A stretch of 39,728 nucleotides of DNA from Granulicella sp. L46 (GTDB lineage: Bacteria; Acidobacteriota; Terriglobia; Terriglobales; Acidobacteriaceae). Both the position numbers and the translations under genes were made by a program. The DNA is taken from contig NZ_LMUT01000009.1 in assembly GCF_009765785.1 (NCBI RefSeq), positions 282,197-321,924 on the forward strand, given 5' to 3'. Below, in pieces: positions 4,400 through 26,139 of the stretch; position 1 is the first letter of the stretch, and each line of letters opens with the position of its first letter. Under the pieces are notes generated by a model. That model was not told the origin of the DNA. It was given only the letters and a program-made list of their open reading frames with translations, and made no database searches.

Positions 4400-6088
4400 C
4401 TACTTCTTCTCCTCGTGATACTCCTGCTCCGAATTAATCCCCCACACCGCATCCTTATCGACATACCCCGTCGCAATCCCATCCACCACCGCCATCGCCG
4501 TCAGCATCGAGTGGTCCTGATTGTTGTACTTGTGCATCCCATTCCTCCCCACCAGGAACAAGTTCTCAAAACGATCCATCCACGTCCTAAGCTCGTCAAA
4601 GCGATCATAGGTCCCAAAGTACGCCGGATACGTCTTCGGCACTCGAACCACGTGCGCATCCAACACCTCCGCCGTCTTCAATATCCCAATCTTCTCCAAC
4701 TCTCCCGCCGCAAATTTCTTCAGCTCTTCGTCCGGCATCGTCCACAGCGCATCGGTCTCATAGCAGAAATACTCAAGCCCAATCCAAACCTTCGCTGGAT
4801 CAGCCACCATATAAGGACTCCAGTTATTAAAAATCTGCAGCCGCCCCAGCAATACGTCCGGCTCCTGGATATAAATCCAAGTATCCCGTATGCGCGTCTT
4901 ATCCGACTCCGTAACATCCAGCTTATTCGCCAGCACGCCCACCGTAATAAAGTCCCGATACTGCAGTCCCTCGCTAACCTCGCGCACATTTCCAGGAACC
5001 TCAACCTTCAGCGCCCGCACCAAATCGCGCATCGGCATCGTCGACAAAAAATAGTCCCCCTCAAACCGCCGAGTCTCCCCCCCAGCATTCACCGCCTCGA
5101 CCGCCACCACACGCGTGCCCTCAACCTCCAACCCAACCACGTTCCACCCCATGGCGATCTCGCCGCCCATCGCGACAACCTTCTCCGCAACATGCTCCCA
5201 CAACTGCCCCGGCCCAAACTTCGGATACAAGAACCGCTCAATCAGCGAAGTATCCGTCCCCTTCTGCGCAATATCCTTCCCACCCTCCGTCGTCGCGCGC
5301 GGCGAAAACATCTTCCTCACAAAGTGTTTCAGCGCAGTCGTCAAACTCAATCCTTTGATCCTCTGCGCACCCCACTCCGCCGAGATCGTGTCGCAAGGCG
5401 TCCCCCAAACCTTCTCCGTATAACTCTTGAAAAACGTCAGGTAAAGTTCACGCCCAAACCGATTGATCAAGAAATCCTCAAGGCTCTTCTCTTCCTTAAT
5501 CGGCCGCAAGCGGCTCATCACATAACTCAAGCCGATCTTCACCATCCGCACCGGCCCCAGGTTCGACACAGTCGTTCCACTCAGCTTAATCGGATAATCA
5601 AAAAACTTCCGCAGATAATAAATCCGGCTCTTCCGCGGCCTCACCAGCATCACCAGGTCGTCACTCTCAGGAGCCGCCGCACCCACCACGGTCACGATCG
5701 GCGCATGCTCCGCCAACTCCTCCGCACTCACATCCTCGCCCGTGTCCCCCACCTTCAACGGCCCCATCCCACGCAACGGAGGCTCTTCCTCTACCGCAAC
5801 CGGCACAGCCACCGTCCGCTGCTGCCCCTGGTAACTAATCTCCGCCGCACCCTCATCCGACTCCACCGGCATCAAGTCCATCCACCATTGCATCACCCGG
5901 TCGCTCTTCGAAAAAAACCTGTGCCCCCCAATGTCCATCCGATTGCCCTTATACCGAATCGTCCGCGAGATCCCCCCAATCTCCTCCGACGCCTCCAGCA
6001 CAATCGGCTGCACATCCGTCTTGCGCAGAAACTCCAGCGCCGCCGTCAGCCCCGCCGGTCCCGCGCCGATCACGATCGCCTTCTTCAT
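4400..6088 (-). CDS. FAD-dependent oxidoreductase related to UDP-galactopyranose mutase / amine oxidases
   Basis: The N-terminus has a Rossmann dinucleotide motif ([15 protein letters not shown], residues 6-20). It is followed by the second FAD contact EIGGISRT and [12 protein letters not shown], typical of the Glf/protoporphyrinogen-oxidase-like flavoproteins found in surface-polysaccharide loci. A C-terminal [14 protein letters not shown] segment completes the FAD site. At 562 aa it is longer than classical Glf (about 370-400). Residues about 80-145 form a Pro/Glu/Ala-rich stretch between the WWMDLMP and [14 protein letters not shown] segments that looks like an insertion. It is divergent from the UbiA gene (268 bases apart). 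Substrate unknown; a role in activated-sugar or lipid-linked sugar chemistry is inferred from its neighbours. Confidence 0.85.
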
Positions 6089-21293: not shown

Positions 21294-22649
21294 ATGCCCA
21301 TCGAAACCTCTTCCGCCCCCTCCCCCATCACCACCATCGCCGACATCGGCAAGCACGAAGGCCAATCCGTCACTCTCCGCGGCTGGCTCTACAATCTCCG
21401 CGCCTCCGGCAAGCTTCTCTTTCCCATCTTCCGCGACGGCACCGGCACCATCCAGGGCATCGTCCCCAAAGCCGCCGTCCCCGAGCATGTATTCGAAACC
21501 CTCAAGTCCCTCACCCTCGAATCCTCCCTCGTCGTCACCGGCCGCGTCCGTGCCGACGCCCGCGCCCCCTCCGGCTTCGAGCTCGACGTCGACGACGTCA
21601 CCATCACCCAGCGCATCCCCGACGAAACCCCCTACCCCATCCAGCTCAAGGAAGCCGGCGTCGACTTCCTCATGGAGAACCGCCACCTCTGGATCCGCAC
21701 CCCCCGCCAGTCCTCCATCCTCCGCATCCGCGCGACGATCATGCGTGCCGCAGCCAAATACTTCGACACCAACGGCTTCATCCGCACCGATCCACCCATC
21801 CTCACCCCCAACGCCTGCGAAGGCACCTCCGAGCTCTTCGAGATGGACTACTTCGGCGACGACAAGGCCTACCTCACCCAATCCGGCCAGCTCTACATCG
21901 AAGCCACCGCCATGGCGCTAGGCCGCGTCTACAGCTTCGGCCCCACCTTCCGCGCCGAAAAATCCAAGACCCGCCGCCACCTCACCGAGTTCTGGATGAT
22001 CGAGCCCGAGGTCACCTACATGGACCTCGACGGCCTCATGTCCCTCGCCGAAGCCTTTCTCACCCACATCGTCACCCGCGTCCTCGAGCTCCACACCGCC
22101 GACCTCAAGACCATCGGCAAAGACGTAACCAAGCTGGAAGCCGTCATCGCCCCTTCGCCCTTTCCACGTTTGACCTACGACGAAGCCCACGCCATGCTAG
22201 TCGACGCCCACGATAAAGGCCTCATCGAAACCGTCCACCAATACGGCGACGACTTCGGCAGCCCCGACGAGACCTTCATCAGCTCCCAATTCACCAAGCC
22301 CGTCATGGTCCACCGCTACCCCGCCGCAGTCAAAGCCTTCTACATGCAGCCCGACCCGCAAGACCCCACCAAGGCTCTCTGCGTAGACGTCCTCGCCCCC
22401 GAAGGCTACGGTGAAATCATCGGCGGCAGCCAACGCGTAGACGACTACGACCTCTTAAAATCCCGCATCGAAAGCCACAACCTCCCCATGGCAGCCTTCC
22501 AGTGGTACCTCGACCTAAGAAAATACGGCAGCGTCCCCCACTCAGGATTCGGCATGGGCATAGAGCGCTGCGTAGCCTGGATCTGCGGCCTAGAACACGT
22601 CCGCGAAACCATCCCCTTCGCCCGCACCCTCAACCGCATCTACCCGTGA
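21294..22649 (+). CDS. asnS: Asparaginyl-tRNA synthetase
   Basis: This class IIb synthetase charges tRNA-Asn. The 451-aa protein has an N-terminal OB-fold anticodon-binding domain (about 20-125, [21 protein letters not shown]) and the catalytic core with motif 1 near 150, motif 2 [21 protein letters not shown] (near 220-240) and motif 3 [16 protein letters not shown] near the C-terminus. The details favour AsnRS over AspRS: no AspRS-type insertion, and the motif 2 region ends in TEFWMIE. A TAAACT hexamer ends 8 bases before the ATG and no Shine-Dalgarno is present, so the mRNA may be nearly leaderless. An RNA with an Asn anticodon loop lies 1.5 kb downstream. Confidence 0.96.
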
Positions 22650-22753: not shown

Positions 22754-23314
22754 ATGGATCTGGAAGATAGATTATTCGAGCTGAAGGTCCTGCAACCGCT
22801 TGGCGCTTCAGTAGATCGATATTTTTACGTCAAACTCGTCGGAGTCAGTCATCTGAACCCCGATCGCACCAGTCGAAAAAATGTCATCAAGACTTTAATT
22901 CAAGGTCAAGAGTTGAAGCTACGTAGGGAACCCACGAACATCTACGATCCAAACGCAATTCTCGTTTGCACTGAGGATGGCAGGGGCGCCGGATATCTCG
23001 ACGCGCGTCTCGCGGGAGACGTTACGCGCAGCATGAAACAGGACGTGCGCTGGCGGTCCTATGTTCGCAGGGTGCTTCATGAAGATGGCACCACCCATTG
23101 GGGTGTCGTTGTATGTATGGTCCGATACAACAAGCTGACTGACAATGCTTCATCCACACCAGGTCTAAGCGGGCCTGAATTTCTAGCGAAGCACTACCCG
23201 GATTACAAACGTATCGAACCGCAAGCCCCATTAGAAACGCTTCCAAGATGGGCGGTGCTGACTATTGCCGGATTACTGCTGCTTGCCTTAGTAATTGCTA
23301 TCCATAGCTGCTGA
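22754..23314 (+). CDS. HIRAN-domain protein with a C-terminal membrane helix
   Basis: The 186-aa protein carries a HIRAN domain at about residues 22-95: VKLVGVSHLNP, then IQGQELKLRREPTN-YDPNAI-V, and GAGYLDARLA. HIRAN folds bind DNA 3' ends in HLTF-type proteins and occur as stand-alone bacterial domains of unknown role. The last 20 residues (WAVLTIAGLLLLALVIAIHS) form one hydrophobic helix, so the protein looks tail-anchored with the domain in the cytoplasm. AGGGG lies at 22739-22743. Its base composition is visibly lower in GC than asnS, suggesting acquired DNA. It is the first gene of the accessory stretch that also holds the RNA array and the Ro60-like gene. Confidence 0.82.
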   Translation: MDLEDRLFELKVLQPLGASVDRYFYVKLVGVSHLNPDRTSRKNVIKTLIQGQELKLRREPTNIYDPNAILVCTEDGRGAGYLDARLAGDVTRSMKQDVRWRSYVRRVLHEDGTTHWGVVVCMVRYNKLTDNASSTPGLSGPEFLAKHYPDYKRIEPQAPLETLPRWAVLTIAGLLLLALVIAIHSC

Positions 23315-23426
23315 AGAACAACAGTGCGAAAACTTCGCCATACACACCCTTTGTGCTCTTGCCTCTAGTGGTTATCACGCGACGAGCGCGACCAGCACAG
23401 CCCATCTCCGACCCACCCAAAACCCC

Positions 23427-23458
23427 TGTCATCCTGAGCGCAGCCGAAGGACCCCGAG
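23427..23458. repeat. Dispersed GTCATCCTGAGC repeat
   Basis: TGTCATCCTGAGCGCAGCCG followed by AAGGACCCCGAG is a shorter relative of the element at 1224-1264. It lies in the 560-base non-coding stretch after the HIRAN gene. Confidence 0.65.
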
Positions 23459-23523
23459 TCCGTCCACCTCACCCCTACCCCTCAACCCTTTCTCACCAAC
23501 CCTCGAAGGGGCACAGCTGGTAG

Positions 23524-23543
23524 CCCAAGGCTTTAGCCTTGGG
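23524..23543. repeat. Strong hairpin of the CCCAAGGCTTTAGCCTTGGG type
   Basis: CCCAAGGC (23524-23531) and GCCTTGGG (23536-23543) pair perfectly around TTTA. A second small hairpin CGCGC-AAA-GCGCG follows at 23565-23577. No U tract follows, so this looks like a REP-type intergenic element rather than a terminator. Confidence 0.6.
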
Positions 23544-23769
23544 TCTCCGTGCCATAAACCAGCCCGCGCAAAGCGCGCACCACTCTGCCGAAGGTCGGAG
23601 TGCAGGCGAAGCCGGAACGACTAAATTGCTTTCCCCAATCCAGTTTCTAAATCCACTTACAAAAATAATCCCAGCAATATCCAATAATTCCCTTGCATTA
23701 AATCTTTATAACTGGCAAAGTAACACCTGCGTAGGAGAAGCCCGATGAATTACAAATCGCACAACACGA

Positions 23770-23855
23770 TGCGTAGGTCCCCAGAGAGCAATCTCTGCGG
23801 CGATCGCCGGGCTTTGTTTATTGCAGCTCAAAGCTGGTAACGCTACACCTACGCA
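23770..23855 (+). ncRNA. Candidate structured RNA upstream of the Y RNA array
   Basis: TGCGTAGGT (23770-23778) pairs perfectly with ACCTACGCA (23847-23855). Inside are CAGAGA-GCAA-TCTCTG (23782-23797, GNRA tetraloop), the palindrome CGGCGATCGCCG (23798-23809) and CAGCT-CAA-AGCTG (near 23825-23837). A second TGCGTAGG at 23728 could compete for the same 3' strand. It lacks the GTGGCG...TACTTC core of the four units downstream, so it is not counted as one of them. Strand is assumed from its neighbours. Confidence 0.4.
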
Positions 23856-23877
23856 CAAACCCAACAACCTAACTAAC

Positions 23878-23949
23878 TCCTGAGTGGCGTTGACGATAGT
23901 TACTTCGCTCAAACCTCGACCAACACTGTCGTCGCTCGTTCCCTCAGGA
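23878..23949 (+). ncRNA. Y RNA-like unit A (short form, no tRNA-like module)
   Basis: Terminal stem TCCTGAG (23878-23884) / CTCAGGA (23943-23949). The conserved GTGGCG follows on the 5' side (23884-23889). The second helix is GACGATAG (23892-23899) / CTGTCGTC (23926-23933), with one G-U pair. The conserved TTACTTC starts at 23900, and TTCC sits just before the closing strand. The loop is a plain pyrimidine- and A-rich 26 bases with no T arm. The architecture matches that of a Y RNA: a Ro-binding stem with conserved internal-loop bases. Only 6 bases separate it from unit B. Confidence 0.75.
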
Positions 23950-23955
23950 ACCCCT

Positions 23956-24049
23956 CTGTCAGTGGCGCACTTCATGGCTACTTCTCGGTAGGTCCCGCAA
24001 GGGCTGGGTTCGAATCCCACTCACGCCTTGAAGGATTATTCCCTGACAG
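23956..24049 (+). ncRNA. Y RNA-like unit B with a partial tRNA-like module
   Basis: Terminal stem CTGTCAG (23956-23962) / CTGACAG (24043-24049). GTGGCG follows it. The second helix is CTTCATGGC (23970-23978) / GCCTTGAAG (24025-24033), with one mismatch. Then come CTACTTC, and TTCC before the closing strand. Inside are a GNRA hairpin CCC-GCAA-GGG (23994-24003) and a canonical T arm TGGG-TTCGAAT-CCCA (24005-24019). There is no acceptor stem or D arm, so it is a reduced mimic, and no conventional tRNA can be folded here. Confidence 0.8.
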
Positions 24050-24051
24050 AA

Positions 24052-24097
24052 CTGCGCTCTCCACGCAGCCGCAAACCCGCGTCTGCAGTGAGCGCAG
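24052..24097 (+). ncRNA. Hairpin between Y RNA-like units B and C
   Basis: CTGCGCTC (24052-24059) pairs perfectly with GAGCGCAG (24090-24097). An inner CAC-GCAG / CTGC-A-GTG helix with one bulge extends it. It starts 3 bases after unit B and ends 11 before unit C, and is followed by AAAA rather than a U tract. It may be a processing signal or a spacer; strand is assumed. Confidence 0.4.
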
Positions 24098-24107
24098 AAA
24101 ATCAAGT

Positions 24108-24243
24108 TAGGCCGGTGGCGCAGAGTACAGTTACTTCGCCTGTTAAGCGGGAGGTCGCAGGTTCGAATCCTGCCGCGGACGTAAGTCTGTGTAGCTCAGT
24201 GGCAGAGCACCTAATTACTGTCCTCGACTTATTCCCCGGCCTA
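24108..24243 (+). ncRNA. Y RNA-like unit C carrying a circularly permuted tRNA-Asn mimic
   Basis: Terminal stem TAGGCCGG (24108-24115) / CCGGCCTA (24236-24243). GTGGCG, then second helix GAGTACAG (24123-24130) / CTGTCCTC (24218-24225, one mismatch), TTACTTC, and TTCC before the closing strand. The insert is a tRNA in permuted order. Anticodon arm: TTCGC-CTGTTAA-GCGGG (24135-24151; 7-base loop with GTT, Asn). Variable loop AGGTC. T arm: GCAGG-TTCGAAT-CCTGC (24157-24173). Acceptor 3' strand CGCGGAC (24174-24180), tetraloop GTAA, acceptor 5' strand GTCTGTG (24185-24191, 7 pairs with two G-U). Then TA, and D arm GCTC-AGTGGCA-GAGC (24194-24208). The acceptor is capped, so no CCA end is possible. 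Confidence 0.85.
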
Positions 24244-24284
24244 TAAAACCATCCAGTAACTCTGGATAGAAAGTGAAGCTTGCA

Positions 24285-24623
24285 ATGGGCAGGCCATACA
24301 TCAAAGGAGGAACGCCGATAGGCTCCGACTCCTTATGCAAAACCTGTAGTTATGCGCAGATTATGTCGGGCTTCCGCGAGTCCGAGTTACTCACCATCTG
24401 CCATAACCCGGACCCGTACTTAACCGTGCCCTTCAATATCTACGAGTGCACGCGTTACTACGACAAAAATCGGCCGAGCTACAACCAGATGCAGAAGCTC
24501 GCCATCCACGTCGAACCCAAGACCCTCAAGCCCGCCGGCTTCCGCACCGGCATCGGCTTTCAGGAGTCCGTAAAAGTCACCGTAGGCACCACCGACGATG
24601 ACGATGAGTACGACGACGACTAA
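24285..24623 (+). CDS. Small Cys-rich protein with an acidic tail, inside the Y RNA array
   Basis: The 112-aa product has a CKTC pair (residues 18-21) and two later cysteines (in TICHNPDP and YECTRYYD), a set that could bind one zinc. Near the end are the segment HVEPKTLKPAGFRTGIGFQ and a terminal run of Asp/Glu (DDDDEYDDD). I do not recognise the family. ATG at 24285 is preferred; GTG at 24273 is possible. A hairpin ATCCAG-TAACT-CTGGAT (24251-24267) precedes it. It sits between RNA units C and D and upstream of the Ro60-like gene, so a job in the same ribonucleoprotein is plausible but inferred. Confidence 0.7.
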   Translation: MGRPYIKGGTPIGSDSLCKTCSYAQIMSGFRESELLTICHNPDPYLTVPFNIYECTRYYDKNRPSYNQMQKLAIHVEPKTLKPAGFRTGIGFQESVKVTVGTTDDDDEYDDD

Positions 24624-24628
24624 CCCAT

Positions 24629-24757
24629 TCGCCGGTGGCGAAGAAGACAGCTACTTCGTAGAGCGCCGTCCGCAAGGACGGAGGTCGCGGGAACCCGCCG
24701 CAGCCGCAGGCTGCGTAGCTCAGACCAACACCGCCGTCTTCACTCATTCCCCGGCGA
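24629..24757 (+). ncRNA. Y RNA-like unit D with a differently permuted tRNA-like module
   Basis: Terminal stem TCGCCGG (24629-24635) / CCGGCGA (24751-24757). GTGGCG, second helix GAAGAC (24643-24648) / GTCTTC (24736-24741), CTACTTC, and TTCC before the closing strand. The module reads: GAGC (24661-24664), hairpin CCGTCC-GCAA-GGACGG (24666-24681), AGGTC, T stem GCGGG/CCCGC with its 7-base loop reduced to AA, acceptor CGCAGCC-GCA-GGCTGCG (24699-24715, 7 perfect pairs), TA, GCTC (24718-24721). GAGC and GCTC can pair as the D stem, so the chain is opened in the D loop. It begins 6 bases after the small Cys-rich gene and ends 36 bases before the Ro60-like ATG. Confidence 0.78.
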
Positions 24758-24771
24758 GTACCACCACCAGC

Positions 24772-24788
24772 CACCTTGAAAGGAGGTG
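24772..24788 (+). promoter_or_regulatory. Ribosome binding site of the Ro60-like gene, possibly masked by a hairpin
   Basis: AAAGGAGG at 24780-24786 is a near-perfect Shine-Dalgarno 6 bases before ATG 24793. CACCT (24772-24776) can pair with AGGTG (24784-24788) around it, covering part of the site. It lies 15 bases after RNA unit D. Confidence 0.45.
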
Positions 24789-24792
24789 CGCC

Positions 24793-26139
24793 ATGAAGTT
24801 AAACATCCTGAAGCTCTCTCACCTCGCGCGTCCCCGCACCCACGAGCGCGCGCCCGCCGCCGTCCTCACCCCGGAGCAGTCGCTCCGCCGCAGCGTCCTC
24901 GCCTGCATGCTCTGGGAAGACGAGTTCTACGAGTCCGGCGCCACCATCGCGTCGCGCCTCCGCGAGCTCGTCCCCCAGGTCGCGCCCGCCACCGTCGCCG
25001 CGCTCGCAATCGAGGCCCGCTCCGCCATGAAGCTGCGTCACGTCCCGCTCCTTCTCGTTCGCGAGATGGCGCGTCACGCCACCCACCGCAGCCTCGTGTC
25101 CGAGACTCTCGCCTCCGTCATCCAGCGTGCCGACGAGCTCTCCGAGTTCGTAGCCATTTACTGGGCCGACGGAAAGCAGCCGCTCTCCGGCCAGGTCAAG
25201 AAGGGTCTAGCCGCCGCCTTCCCGCGCTTCGACGAATACGCGCTCGCCAAGTACGATCGCGCCACCGTCGTTCGTCTCCGCGACGTCCTGTTCCTCTCGC
25301 ACGCCAAGCCGCGTGACGCCGAGCAGGCCGCCGTCTGGAAGCGTCTCGTCGACGGACAGCTCGCCACTCCCGACACCTGGGAGGTCGCACTCTCCGCTTC
25401 GGGAAGCTCCGGAGTCTCGGCCTCTGCGCAGACCAAGCGCGACACCTGGGAGCGTCTGCTCACCGAGCGCAAGCTCGGCGCCCTCGCCCTCCTGCGCAAC
25501 CTTCGCAACATGAAGGACGCAGCCGTGTCGGAACACCTCGTCCTCAACGCACTCGCTGCGATGAACGCCGAGCGCGTCCTCCCGTTCCGCTTCCTCGCCG
25601 CCGCGCGCCATGCGCCACAGTGGGAAGAGGCACTCGAGGCCGCAATGTTCCGCGCGGTTTCCGAAGGAAAGCGTCTCGCCGGACACACCGTTCTCCTTGT
25701 CGACGTGTCCGGGTCCATGATCGCGTCGCTCTCCCGCCGTTCGGAGATGAACCGCGTCGACGCAGCCTACGGTCTAGCCGTGCTGCTGCGCGAGATCGCC
25801 GAGAAGGTAAGCATCTTCACCTTCTCGAACTCGGCGAAGCTAGTTCCCTCTCGTCGCGGATTCGCTCTCCGCGATGCGATGGAAGCCAGTCAGCCGCACC
25901 TTGGAACCAATCTCGGTGCGTCACTGGTAACCGTGCACGATGAGGTCCCGCACTACGACCGCCTCATCGTCATCACCGACGAGCAGTCGCACGATCGCGT
26001 CTCCGCACCCCGCAACCACGGATACGTGATCAACGTCGCCTCTGCGAAGAACGGAGTTGGCTATGGAAGCTGGACCCACATCGATGGCTGGAGCGAGTCC
26101 GTCATCGACTACATCCGCGAACTAGAGCTCGCGGTTTAG
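24793..26139 (+). CDS. rsr: TROVE-domain Ro60 orthologue (Rsr), RNA-binding ring protein
   Basis: Ro60 proteins are HEAT-repeat rings that bind misfolded RNAs in the central hole and Y RNAs on the outside; in bacteria they work with exonucleases in RNA turnover and stress. The 448-aa protein has the TROVE helical repeat region at about 20-290 (LACMLWEDEFYESG, ARSAMKLRHVPLLLVREMARH, LRNLRNMKDAAV). A von Willebrand A domain follows with a complete MIDAS: DVSGSM at 304-309, Thr372 in GTNLG, and D396 in ITDEQS. It is shorter than the 530-540 aa of human or Deinococcus Ro60. The start at 24793 has a strong ribosome site; an in-frame ATG at 24598 would translate through RNA unit D and was rejected. 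Confidence 0.94.
   Translation: MKLNILKLSHLARPRTHERAPAAVLTPEQSLRRSVLACMLWEDEFYESGATIASRLRELVPQVAPATVAALAIEARSAMKLRHVPLLLVREMARHATHRSLVSETLASVIQRADELSEFVAIYWADGKQPLSGQVKKGLAAAFPRFDEYALAKYDRATVVRLRDVLFLSHAKPRDAEQAAVWKRLVDGQLATPDTWEVALSASGSSGVSASAQTKRDTWERLLTERKLGALALLRNLRNMKDAAVSEHLVLNALAAMNAERVLPFRFLAAARHAPQWEEALEAAMFRAVSEGKRLAGHTVLLVDVSGSMIASLSRRSEMNRVDAAYGLAVLLREIAEKVSIFTFSNSAKLVPSRRGFALRDAMEASQPHLGTNLGASLVTVHDEVPHYDRLIVITDEQSHDRVSAPRNHGYVINVASAKNGVGYGSWTHIDGWSESVIDYIRELELAV

Follow-up and report, generated by a model that had tools for sequence, protein, structure and literature searches.

A putative Ro60-associated Y RNA of Granulicella sp. L46 carries a circularly permuted tRNA module with an anticodon loop

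The window analysed here is a stretch of 39,728 nucleotides from Granulicella sp. L46 (contig NZ_LMUT01000009.1, positions 282,197 to 321,924), in which several RNA units stand between a gene for asparagine--tRNA ligase and a gene for Rsr, the bacterial orthologue of Ro60. The features of the locus are as follows:

21294..22649, + strand: asnS, asparagine--tRNA ligase (NCBIfam NF003037, 538.6 bits)
22754-23314: HIRAN-domain protein (Pfam search), between asnS and unit A
23728-23855: unit A, a long-stem RNA element 5' of the Y RNAs B1, B2 and C
23879..23948, + strand: Y RNA unit B1, with a Y stem and counterparts in relatives
23955..24049, + strand: Y RNA unit B2, with a Y stem and, besides it, just two hairpins, one T-arm-like (TGGGTTCGAATCCCA) and one with GCAA; counterparts in relatives
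24110..24241, + strand: Y RNA unit C, a Y-type stem with a permuted tRNA module at its tip (from sequence and fold)
24285..24623, + strand: Cys-containing small protein, encoded between units C and D (searched as ORF 24273-24623)
24630..24755, + strand: Y RNA unit D, a second permutant, with a D-loop opening
24793..26139, + strand: Rsr, TROVE + VWA (Pfam PF05731, E 1.2e-12, and PF13519, searched with the longer ORF 24598-26139)

Unit C adjoins the TROVE + VWA (Rsr/Ro60) gene found by Pfam, which is downstream, and units similar to it stand 5' of Rsr in relatives. A long terminal stem joins its 5' and 3' ends in the fold of 24108-24243. This Y stem contains GGCCGG...CCGGCC together with the motifs GGTGGCG and TTCCCC, which we take to be Rsr-binding. 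A search of the + strand from 23300 to 24850 returned no sigma-70-type promoter pattern, a result that says little for this phylum. No tRNA module was seen in the sequence of unit B1. The window's copy of unit B2 has no clean acceptor-like stem; in the counterpart at locus L042 the T-arm-like and GCAA hairpins lie inside a 7-bp acceptor-like stem (TGGCAGA/TCTGCCA), an arrangement that appears similar to a tRNA minihelix opened at its natural ends.

Unit A has an 8-bp closing stem (TGCGTAGG/CCTACGCA) and the inner motifs CGATGA, GATGCGTAGGTC and GGCGATCGCCGG. Elements like it were found by pattern search 5' of the Y RNAs in 11 related loci, of which L045 and L144 are one genome; the pattern missed the window's own copy, which was seen by eye. 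Unit A had no Rfam match at the gathering score and is possibly a leader or another non-coding RNA. The small protein at 24285-24623, in which a CxxC motif and an acidic tail were read by eye, gave a tblastn match in 7 of 10 relatives' neighbourhoods and no Pfam hit. asnS was rejected as a functional partner, as it was found near Rsr in 3 of the 10 relatives' neighbourhoods (L043, L044 and L045; that of L051 holds just 0.3 kb upstream), where the mimics beside it read ATG, CAT and ATC and none reads GTT. Its position upstream of unit C looks like plain synteny and not like part of the system. RNA repair by RtcB was rejected as a constant partner for the window's genome, G000, which gave 0 matches; RtcB was found in 10 of the 16 genomes searched, in 4 of them at a distance from Rsr of about 1 kb or less. 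In a Bryobacterales MAG (locus L213, 1344-5636), 25 Rfam tRNA hits, many of them low-scoring, lie beside Y RNA and Rsr. One of these hits (5566-5636) overlaps a Y RNA unit, and RtcB lies among the hits by coordinates.

The module at the tip of unit C occupies 24137-24211 and runs from the anticodon arm through the T arm and an acceptor closed by GTAA to the D arm, in tRNA numbering:

24137..24151, + strand: anticodon arm; 29-31 CGC, loop 32-38 CTGTTAA, 39-43 GCGGG
24152..24156, + strand: variable loop AGGTC (44-48), in which C48 partners G15
24157..24173, + strand: T arm of 5 pairs, GCAGG-TTCGAAT-CCTGC
24174..24191, + strand: acceptor stem of 7 pairs closed by GTAA, the natural tRNA ends being fused
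24194..24208, + strand: D arm GCTC-AGTGGCA-GAGC
24210..24211, + strand: CC, 27'-28', the lower 5' strand of the anticodon stem, paired with 43-42; the opening follows this CC

The anticodon loop lies at 24140-24146 with GTT at 24142-24144, U8 and A9 at 24192-24193, and A26 at 24209. The acceptor consists of a 3' strand CGCGGAC (24174-24180), the GTAA (24181-24184) and a 5' strand GTCTGTG (24185-24191), with G-U at 2 of its 7 pairs. No CCA is encoded at the acceptor end, which is closed by GTAA instead. A sequence-only reading of this DNA had proposed a permuted tRNA mimic within a Y RNA, its natural ends fused, and the order and all of the arms that it named were found where it had placed them. 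Put into tRNA order (24185-24209 followed by 24135-24180, a 71-mer, with the first G of GTAA as G73, 72 nt in all), the module was called tRNA-Asn(gtt) by ARAGORN, with a cloverleaf that includes GTT and G73. In its natural order the window gave no tRNA by ARAGORN and nothing by Rfam at gathering scores. Free folding of 24108-24243 (-53.7 kcal/mol, z -2.34, 4 of 200 shuffles as good), a check which the same reading had suggested alongside the permuted tRNA search, recovered the Y stem, T arm, acceptor and D arm and placed the anticodon hairpin in a shifted position.

Covariance models were used to search for relatives of the module. Two of these, R1 from ten aligned C-type modules and R2 from 58 modules, include the window, so that their scores for unit C are partly by construction; R3 was built from nine relatives with the window left out. 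On the 5.48-Mb genome of the organism itself, R3 returned the unit C module at 100.7 bits (E 2.6e-21). The next best of its 6 matches at E <= 0.01 was a tandem tRNA-Ile/tRNA-Ala pair (36.3 bits, E 3.0e-5). Tandem tRNA genes imitate the permuted order, which suggests a route by which such permutants could arise. Weak raw matches were not taken as Y RNAs, the second-best in the own genome being this tandem pair. R1 at E <= 0.01 matched 361 of 398 family genomes, taken by score as mostly plain or tandem tRNAs, and R2 at E <= 1e-7 matched 75 of 113 genomes of the class of the Pelotomaculum genome; apart from the Pelotomaculum unit these were taken as tandem tRNA genes by score alone and left unused. 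Uncleaned tallies were 31 of 396 phylum genomes (E <= 1e-7), 57 of 397 order genomes (E <= 1e-9) and 33 of 200 around Asticcacaulis (E <= 1e-7).

Rsr relatives were found in 11 of the 101 genomes searched, own genome counted. Genome searches with the models together with 80 named Rsr loci yielded 181 distinct units, which were sorted into 88 of an anticodon-loop class, 30 YrlA-like and 63 other or unparsed. The 88 parsed modules are spread over several phyla and include 2 (L230 and L236, loop CTTTTAA) that resemble tandem tRNA-Lys and may be false; among the 30 YrlA-like units, 2 (L088_1329 and L162_5328) are badly parsed. The loci span Acidobacteria and Terriglobia (several genera), Bryobacterales, Asticcacaulis, Caulobacter and Hyphomicrobiaceae, with some from MAGs, and also come from Pelotomaculum, a Clostridiales MAG and a Deltaproteobacterium. 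The pools leave out 20 rows with a foldable arm and no Y context, of which L220, L222, L223 and L224 may be genuine, 4 rows with no TC motif, of which L140_5332 looks genuine, and the L047 unit.

The Rfam YrlA model RF02553 matched unit C at 36.4 bits (E 6.2e-6) over model positions 23-88 of 114, with a gathering cut-off of 69. As it falls below this score, unit C is a variant beyond the current Rfam model and not a strict RF02553 member; at the cut-off RF02553 gave no match in 13 loci with related units. The Rfam tRNA model matched unit C weakly, at 21.6 bits. Hits to Acido-Lenti-1, mascRNA and GRIK4 in the window were below cut-off and were set aside. Y RNA units at L213 (5566-5636) and L149 (5110-5172) pass the Rfam tRNA cut-off because the 5' strand of the Y stem is read as acceptor and D arm.

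Pairing across the module was evaluated in 57 distinct modules. Standard pairs filled 97.9% of pair cells in an alignment fitted to the model, and this fell to 33-47% of cells when partners were slid. Two-sided changes were observed at 18 of the 21 pairs, 227 in total versus 52 in shuffles. The 31-39 pair, which the parser required, varies between CG, AT, GC and TA and shows 13 changes on each side and 13 joint changes on the Rsr tree. Comparison shows in this manner a permuted secondary structure that these RNAs would share. The acceptor loop is not conserved; it was GNRA in 22 of the 79 relatives parsed for it (9 of the 88 modules were not), a lower limit, and 3 to 41 nt long, upper limits, as the rule counts unbroken stems only. 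The fused ends under a GNRA cap described in the sequence-only reading are hence real in unit C, with the cap itself confined to a minority of parsed relatives.

That reading had opened the tRNA between positions 26 and 27, which was not borne out, as 27' and 28' follow the D arm and pair with 43 and 42. In unit C the downstream CC gives two C-G pairs in place of two G-U. A hairpin using the upstream UU (24135-24136) as 27-28 is less preferred, since these bases hardly vary with their partners 42-43, and paired 97.3% of cells, almost equal to the 97.9% of the split stem, both figures coming from an alignment fitted to the split-stem structure. In the 25 modules that lack G at one or both of positions 42 and 43, downstream 28'/27' made 45 of 50 pairs and upstream 28/27 made 35 of 50, in a test for which the parser demanded at least one downstream pair. 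Modules with C42 have G as the downstream base in 9 of 9 cases, and the upstream base cannot pair there. Covarying cases at 27'-28' are few, with two-sided changes in 4 and 3 of the 57 modules and 5 joint changes per pair on the Rsr tree. When upstream 29 is unable to pair with 41, downstream 29' pairs in 11 of 11 cases of the parsed set, the rule of which itself demanded that one of the two pair; it does so in 10 of 10 units of a relaxed set, which excludes five rows that are one-base-shifted readings of otherwise fully pairing units. Comparison puts the probable opening inside a complete, two-stranded anticodon stem, after position 28 or 29.

Further evidence came from pair 15-48, which joins segments that the permutation moved apart. 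This pair belongs to no model used, with the parsing requiring a 4-pair D stem. It is G-C in 62, A-U in 13 and other in 5 of the 80 anticodon-loop modules parsed for it (8 of the 88 were not). Seven independent pairs on the Rsr tree (45 rows) comprised 6 concordant, 0 discordant and 1 with no difference (sign test p 0.031), and in 61 other Y-like units the counts were G-C 38, A-U 15 and other 8. Positions 8-14 are U-A in 78 of 80 modules and the GG of the D loop is present in 79 of 80. The 15-48 contact, which is brought out by comparison, is together with 8-14 and GG the best evidence that the module would take the tRNA elbow.

The anticodon loop itself turns over rapidly. The 84 loops with U33 hold 32 kinds of triplet, with GTT (17) the commonest, followed by CAT (10) and GTC (8), and five same-genus relatives read CAT, ATG, CAT, ATC and GAA. 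The exact loop CTGTTAA was found in 12 of the 88 modules. On a tree of 52 Rsr proteins, which leaves out L213 and L216 on account of stops, the triplet changes at least 34 times; this is fewer than the shuffled mean of 37.8 (p 0.002), and close relatives share the triplet somewhat. Columns 34, 35 and 36 take 22, 22 and 18 steps and are among the fastest, close to what shuffling gives and to the 23 steps of linker base 30'; U33 takes 2 steps and bases 54-58 take 0 to 2. The fast 34-36 set against the nearly fixed U33 imply that the shape of the loop is kept and its coding identity is not. Asparagine identity of the module is, judged by this turnover, not conserved. Wholesale loop differences are also seen within two pairs of Rsr relatives that lie close together on the tree (distance about 0.1), namely L204/L207 (CTCTGGA/CTGACAC) and L169/L170 (CTCCTAA/CTGAGGA).

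The loop does keep combinations of bases that are seen in tRNAs. Positions 36-38 read UAA in 40, CAC in 12 and GGA in 6 of the 84 loops, and 33-38 match an own-genome tRNA loop in 52 of 88 units (shuffled mean 34.4) and in 18 of 50 distinct loops (shuffled mean 11.6, p 0.008). One loop on the list of real loops (Lys TTT) was corrected by hand, and the distinct-loop statistics retain some relatedness. G37 goes with G36 in 6 of 8 G37 loops (Fisher p 1.3e-4, distinct loops); on distinct loops the association of C36 with C38 only just reaches significance (p 0.044) and that of T36 with A38 does not (Fisher p 0.24). Coupling of 34-35 with 36-38 is weak (p 0.087, distinct loops). The link between 36 and 37-38 suggests that the loop may be under a constraint beyond that of a plain handle.

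The tRNA-Asn likeness noted from the sequence alone is real. Out of 47 distinct own-genome tRNAs, tRNA-Asn(gtt) was the closest to unit C (76.4% identity, ungapped), followed by tRNA-Lys(ctt) at 74.0% with one gap. tRNA-Asn also remained best after masking of the anticodon (35 vs 32 for Lys) or of the loop (31 vs 28); when the loop was masked and unit C was read with the CC opening, tRNA-Asn tied with tRNA-Arg(CCT) at 27 each. The recent or selected derivation from a tRNA-Asn that had been proposed on these grounds was not supported as stated, given the other triplets of relatives and the repeated triplet changes. An old tRNA-Asn-like ancestor of the module is possible, since GTT outnumbers every other triplet and turns up in groups that are only distantly related.

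Unit C is not the only permutant of its cluster. In unit D, GAGC at 24661-24664 pairs with GCTC at 24718-24721, enclosing an anticodon stem CCGTCC/GGACGG with a GCAA cap, a reduced T loop and an acceptor hairpin CGCAGCC/GGCTGCG; it is matched weakly by R3 (25.9 bits, E 8.4e-5 in the window). A set of 17 D-loop permutants was assembled from 17 pattern matches by setting aside L107, in which GCTC falls in the acceptor hairpin, and adding unit D, which the pattern had missed on account of the reduced T loop. These read (GG)YA-GAGC-anticodon hairpin-variable loop-T arm-acceptor hairpin-UA-GCUC-AG. GAGC, the T arm and GCTC were demanded by the pattern and are not independent evidence; undemanded were GGYA before GAGC (11 of 17), a purine at 26 (17 of 17), UA at 8-9 (14 of 17) and AG after GCTC (12 of 17). 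Their anticodon stems have at least 4 pairs, of differing sequences, in 16 of 17, and the anticodon loop has 3 or 4 bases in 15 of 17. The 30 YrlA-like units follow the known YrlA plan, with the anticodon stem as joint and no anticodon loop. Of the 93 loci that have at least one anticodon-loop or YrlA-like unit, 12 combine these two kinds, a D-loop-opened unit is accompanied by an anticodon-loop unit in 11 and by a YrlA-like unit in 1, and all three kinds occur together in 5; these are counts of loci and not species, as the loci differ in length and some overlap in genome.

The likeness of YrlA to the D, T and acceptor arms of tRNA is described in the available part of PMC8394870; there the stem tethers Rsr, TruB and DusA modify the tRNA-like domain, and this domain binds PNPase. 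The YrlA structure 6CU1 is circularly permuted relative to tRNA according to the accessible portion of PMC11472068. Unit C is like YrlA (RF02553; Salmonella 6CU1) in being encoded with rsr, in its permuted T arm, closed acceptor hairpin and D arm, and in joining the Y stem via the side of the anticodon stem. It has a 7-nt anticodon loop, whereas the Rfam YrlA consensus closes by a 4-pair helix without such a loop, and unit D, unlike YrlA, has its opening in the D loop. According to the excerpt of PMC7790460 consulted, work on the function of Rsr and Y RNAs in bacteria had been confined to Deinococcus. Unit C resembles the Y RNA/Rsr/PNPase system of Deinococcus radiodurans (RYPER) as an Rsr-associated Y RNA that may be expected to act as a tether. 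Tethering of PNPase was shown there, going by the parts of PMC7790460 and PMC8394870 at hand, and would be expected for unit C by analogy.

Taken together, we consider it probable that unit C belongs to the YrlA-type Y RNAs that accompany Ro60, that a complete permuted tRNA module with an anticodon loop serves in it as a docking handle, and that it is neither a tRNA gene nor specific for asparagine. In structural terms, a tRNA would have been opened inside its anticodon stem, its natural ends fused and an Rsr-binding stem grafted into the opening. Unit C would be expressed, bind Rsr through its stem and most likely present a tRNA body of L shape at the far end of that stem. A tRNA-binding partner could then grip the tRNA-like elbow and thereby become tethered to the Rsr ring; PNPase is a candidate by the Deinococcus analogy, possibly also tRNA-modifying enzymes, by which the module may itself be modified. 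Other openings, in the D loop or anticodon loop, would present the same body at different angles.

A wider reading takes the Y RNA clusters to be permutants of one tRNA body, with the Rsr stem grafted at one of three places, D loop, anticodon stem or anticodon loop, and with all three kinds sometimes present in the same cluster. The U-turn loop, fast triplet and tRNA-like 36-38 of the anticodon-stem class would in that case act as bait for anticodon-reading enzymes, either nucleases or enzymes that modify position 37. This is a tentative proposal that we hold to be possible rather than likely.

It is doubtful that the fast-changing loop is specifically a decoy, competing with tRNAs for stress- or phage-triggered anticodon nucleases while Rsr/Y RNA guards against or senses tRNA damage. 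The part of PMC7790460 consulted raises the YrlA tRNA-like domain as a possible competitive inhibitor of anticodon nuclease, an idea that the anticodon-loop class fits better than YrlA does. The rapid 34-36 next to a nearly fixed U33, the tRNA-like 36-38 and the RtcB genes close to Rsr in 4 of 16 genomes are consistent with a decoy; the rate of 34-36, however, is like that of linker base 30' and thus gives no sign of positive selection, YrlA itself was by the same source not cleaved, RtcB has no match in the genome of the window, and the short anticodon loops of most D-loop permutants do not fit.

Gene conversion with genuine tRNA genes, by which the loop would sample real tRNAs and unit C would have taken tRNA-Asn sequence, appears unlikely. 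In 42 of the 88 modules the loop exactly matches one of 43 own-genome tRNA loops, the anticodon is coupled to 37-38 as in tRNAs, and tRNA-Asn is the best match of unit C even with anticodon or loop masked. These observations are offset by the flanking stem, mostly CGM/KCGGG, which belongs to the Y RNA family itself irrespective of the anticodon, by the tie with tRNA-Arg(CCT), by the scarce coupling of 34-35 to 36-38, and by A34, present in 8 of 84 loops compared with 1 of 43 real loops. That unit C is instead a permuted tRNA-Asn gene of the algal and archaeal kind, with a transcript that is closed into a circle, cleaved at the acceptor loop and then serves translation, is very improbable despite the full tRNA-Asn obtained on re-ordering and the existence of permuted tRNA genes (PMC3978253, in part), because a normal tRNA-Asn(GTT) gene is present in the genome (L020), RtcB as candidate ligase is unmatched in G000, no CCA is encoded, anticodon and acceptor loop vary among relatives, and the flanks pair into a Y stem 5' of Rsr.

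Mimicry of tRNA by a larger RNA is known from tmRNA and from viral tRNA-like structures, from which unit C differs in having no free acceptor end. The permuted tRNA genes of algae and archaea, as covered in the available text of PMC3978253, are opened at several places of the cloverleaf (types I-V) and share with unit C the order 3' half, linker, 5' half; they are processed to working tRNAs, unlike unit C, which has no CCA and no conserved anticodon and lies inside a Y stem.

The circularly permuted order of YrlA with respect to tRNA has already been published, in the portion of PMC11472068 seen. What is new, as far as checked, is a class of Y RNA that keeps the anticodon loop, along with cluster mates opened in the D loop or, in the YrlA-like units, in the anticodon loop. 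No report of anticodon-loop or D-loop-opened Y RNAs was recognised in the literature searched, which is a weak negative since the primary Y RNA papers fell outside it. For annotation, caution is warranted, as two relatives' Y RNA units pass the Rfam tRNA cut-off and tandem tRNAs imitate the permuted order. The published idea of a Y RNA that inhibits an anticodon nuclease becomes directly testable with this class. The wide spread of the anticodon-loop class and the sister RNAs opened elsewhere in the cloverleaf suggest that selection holds the shape of tRNA rather than its order or coding identity, and these natural permutants let one ask what Rsr's partner reads on a tRNA.
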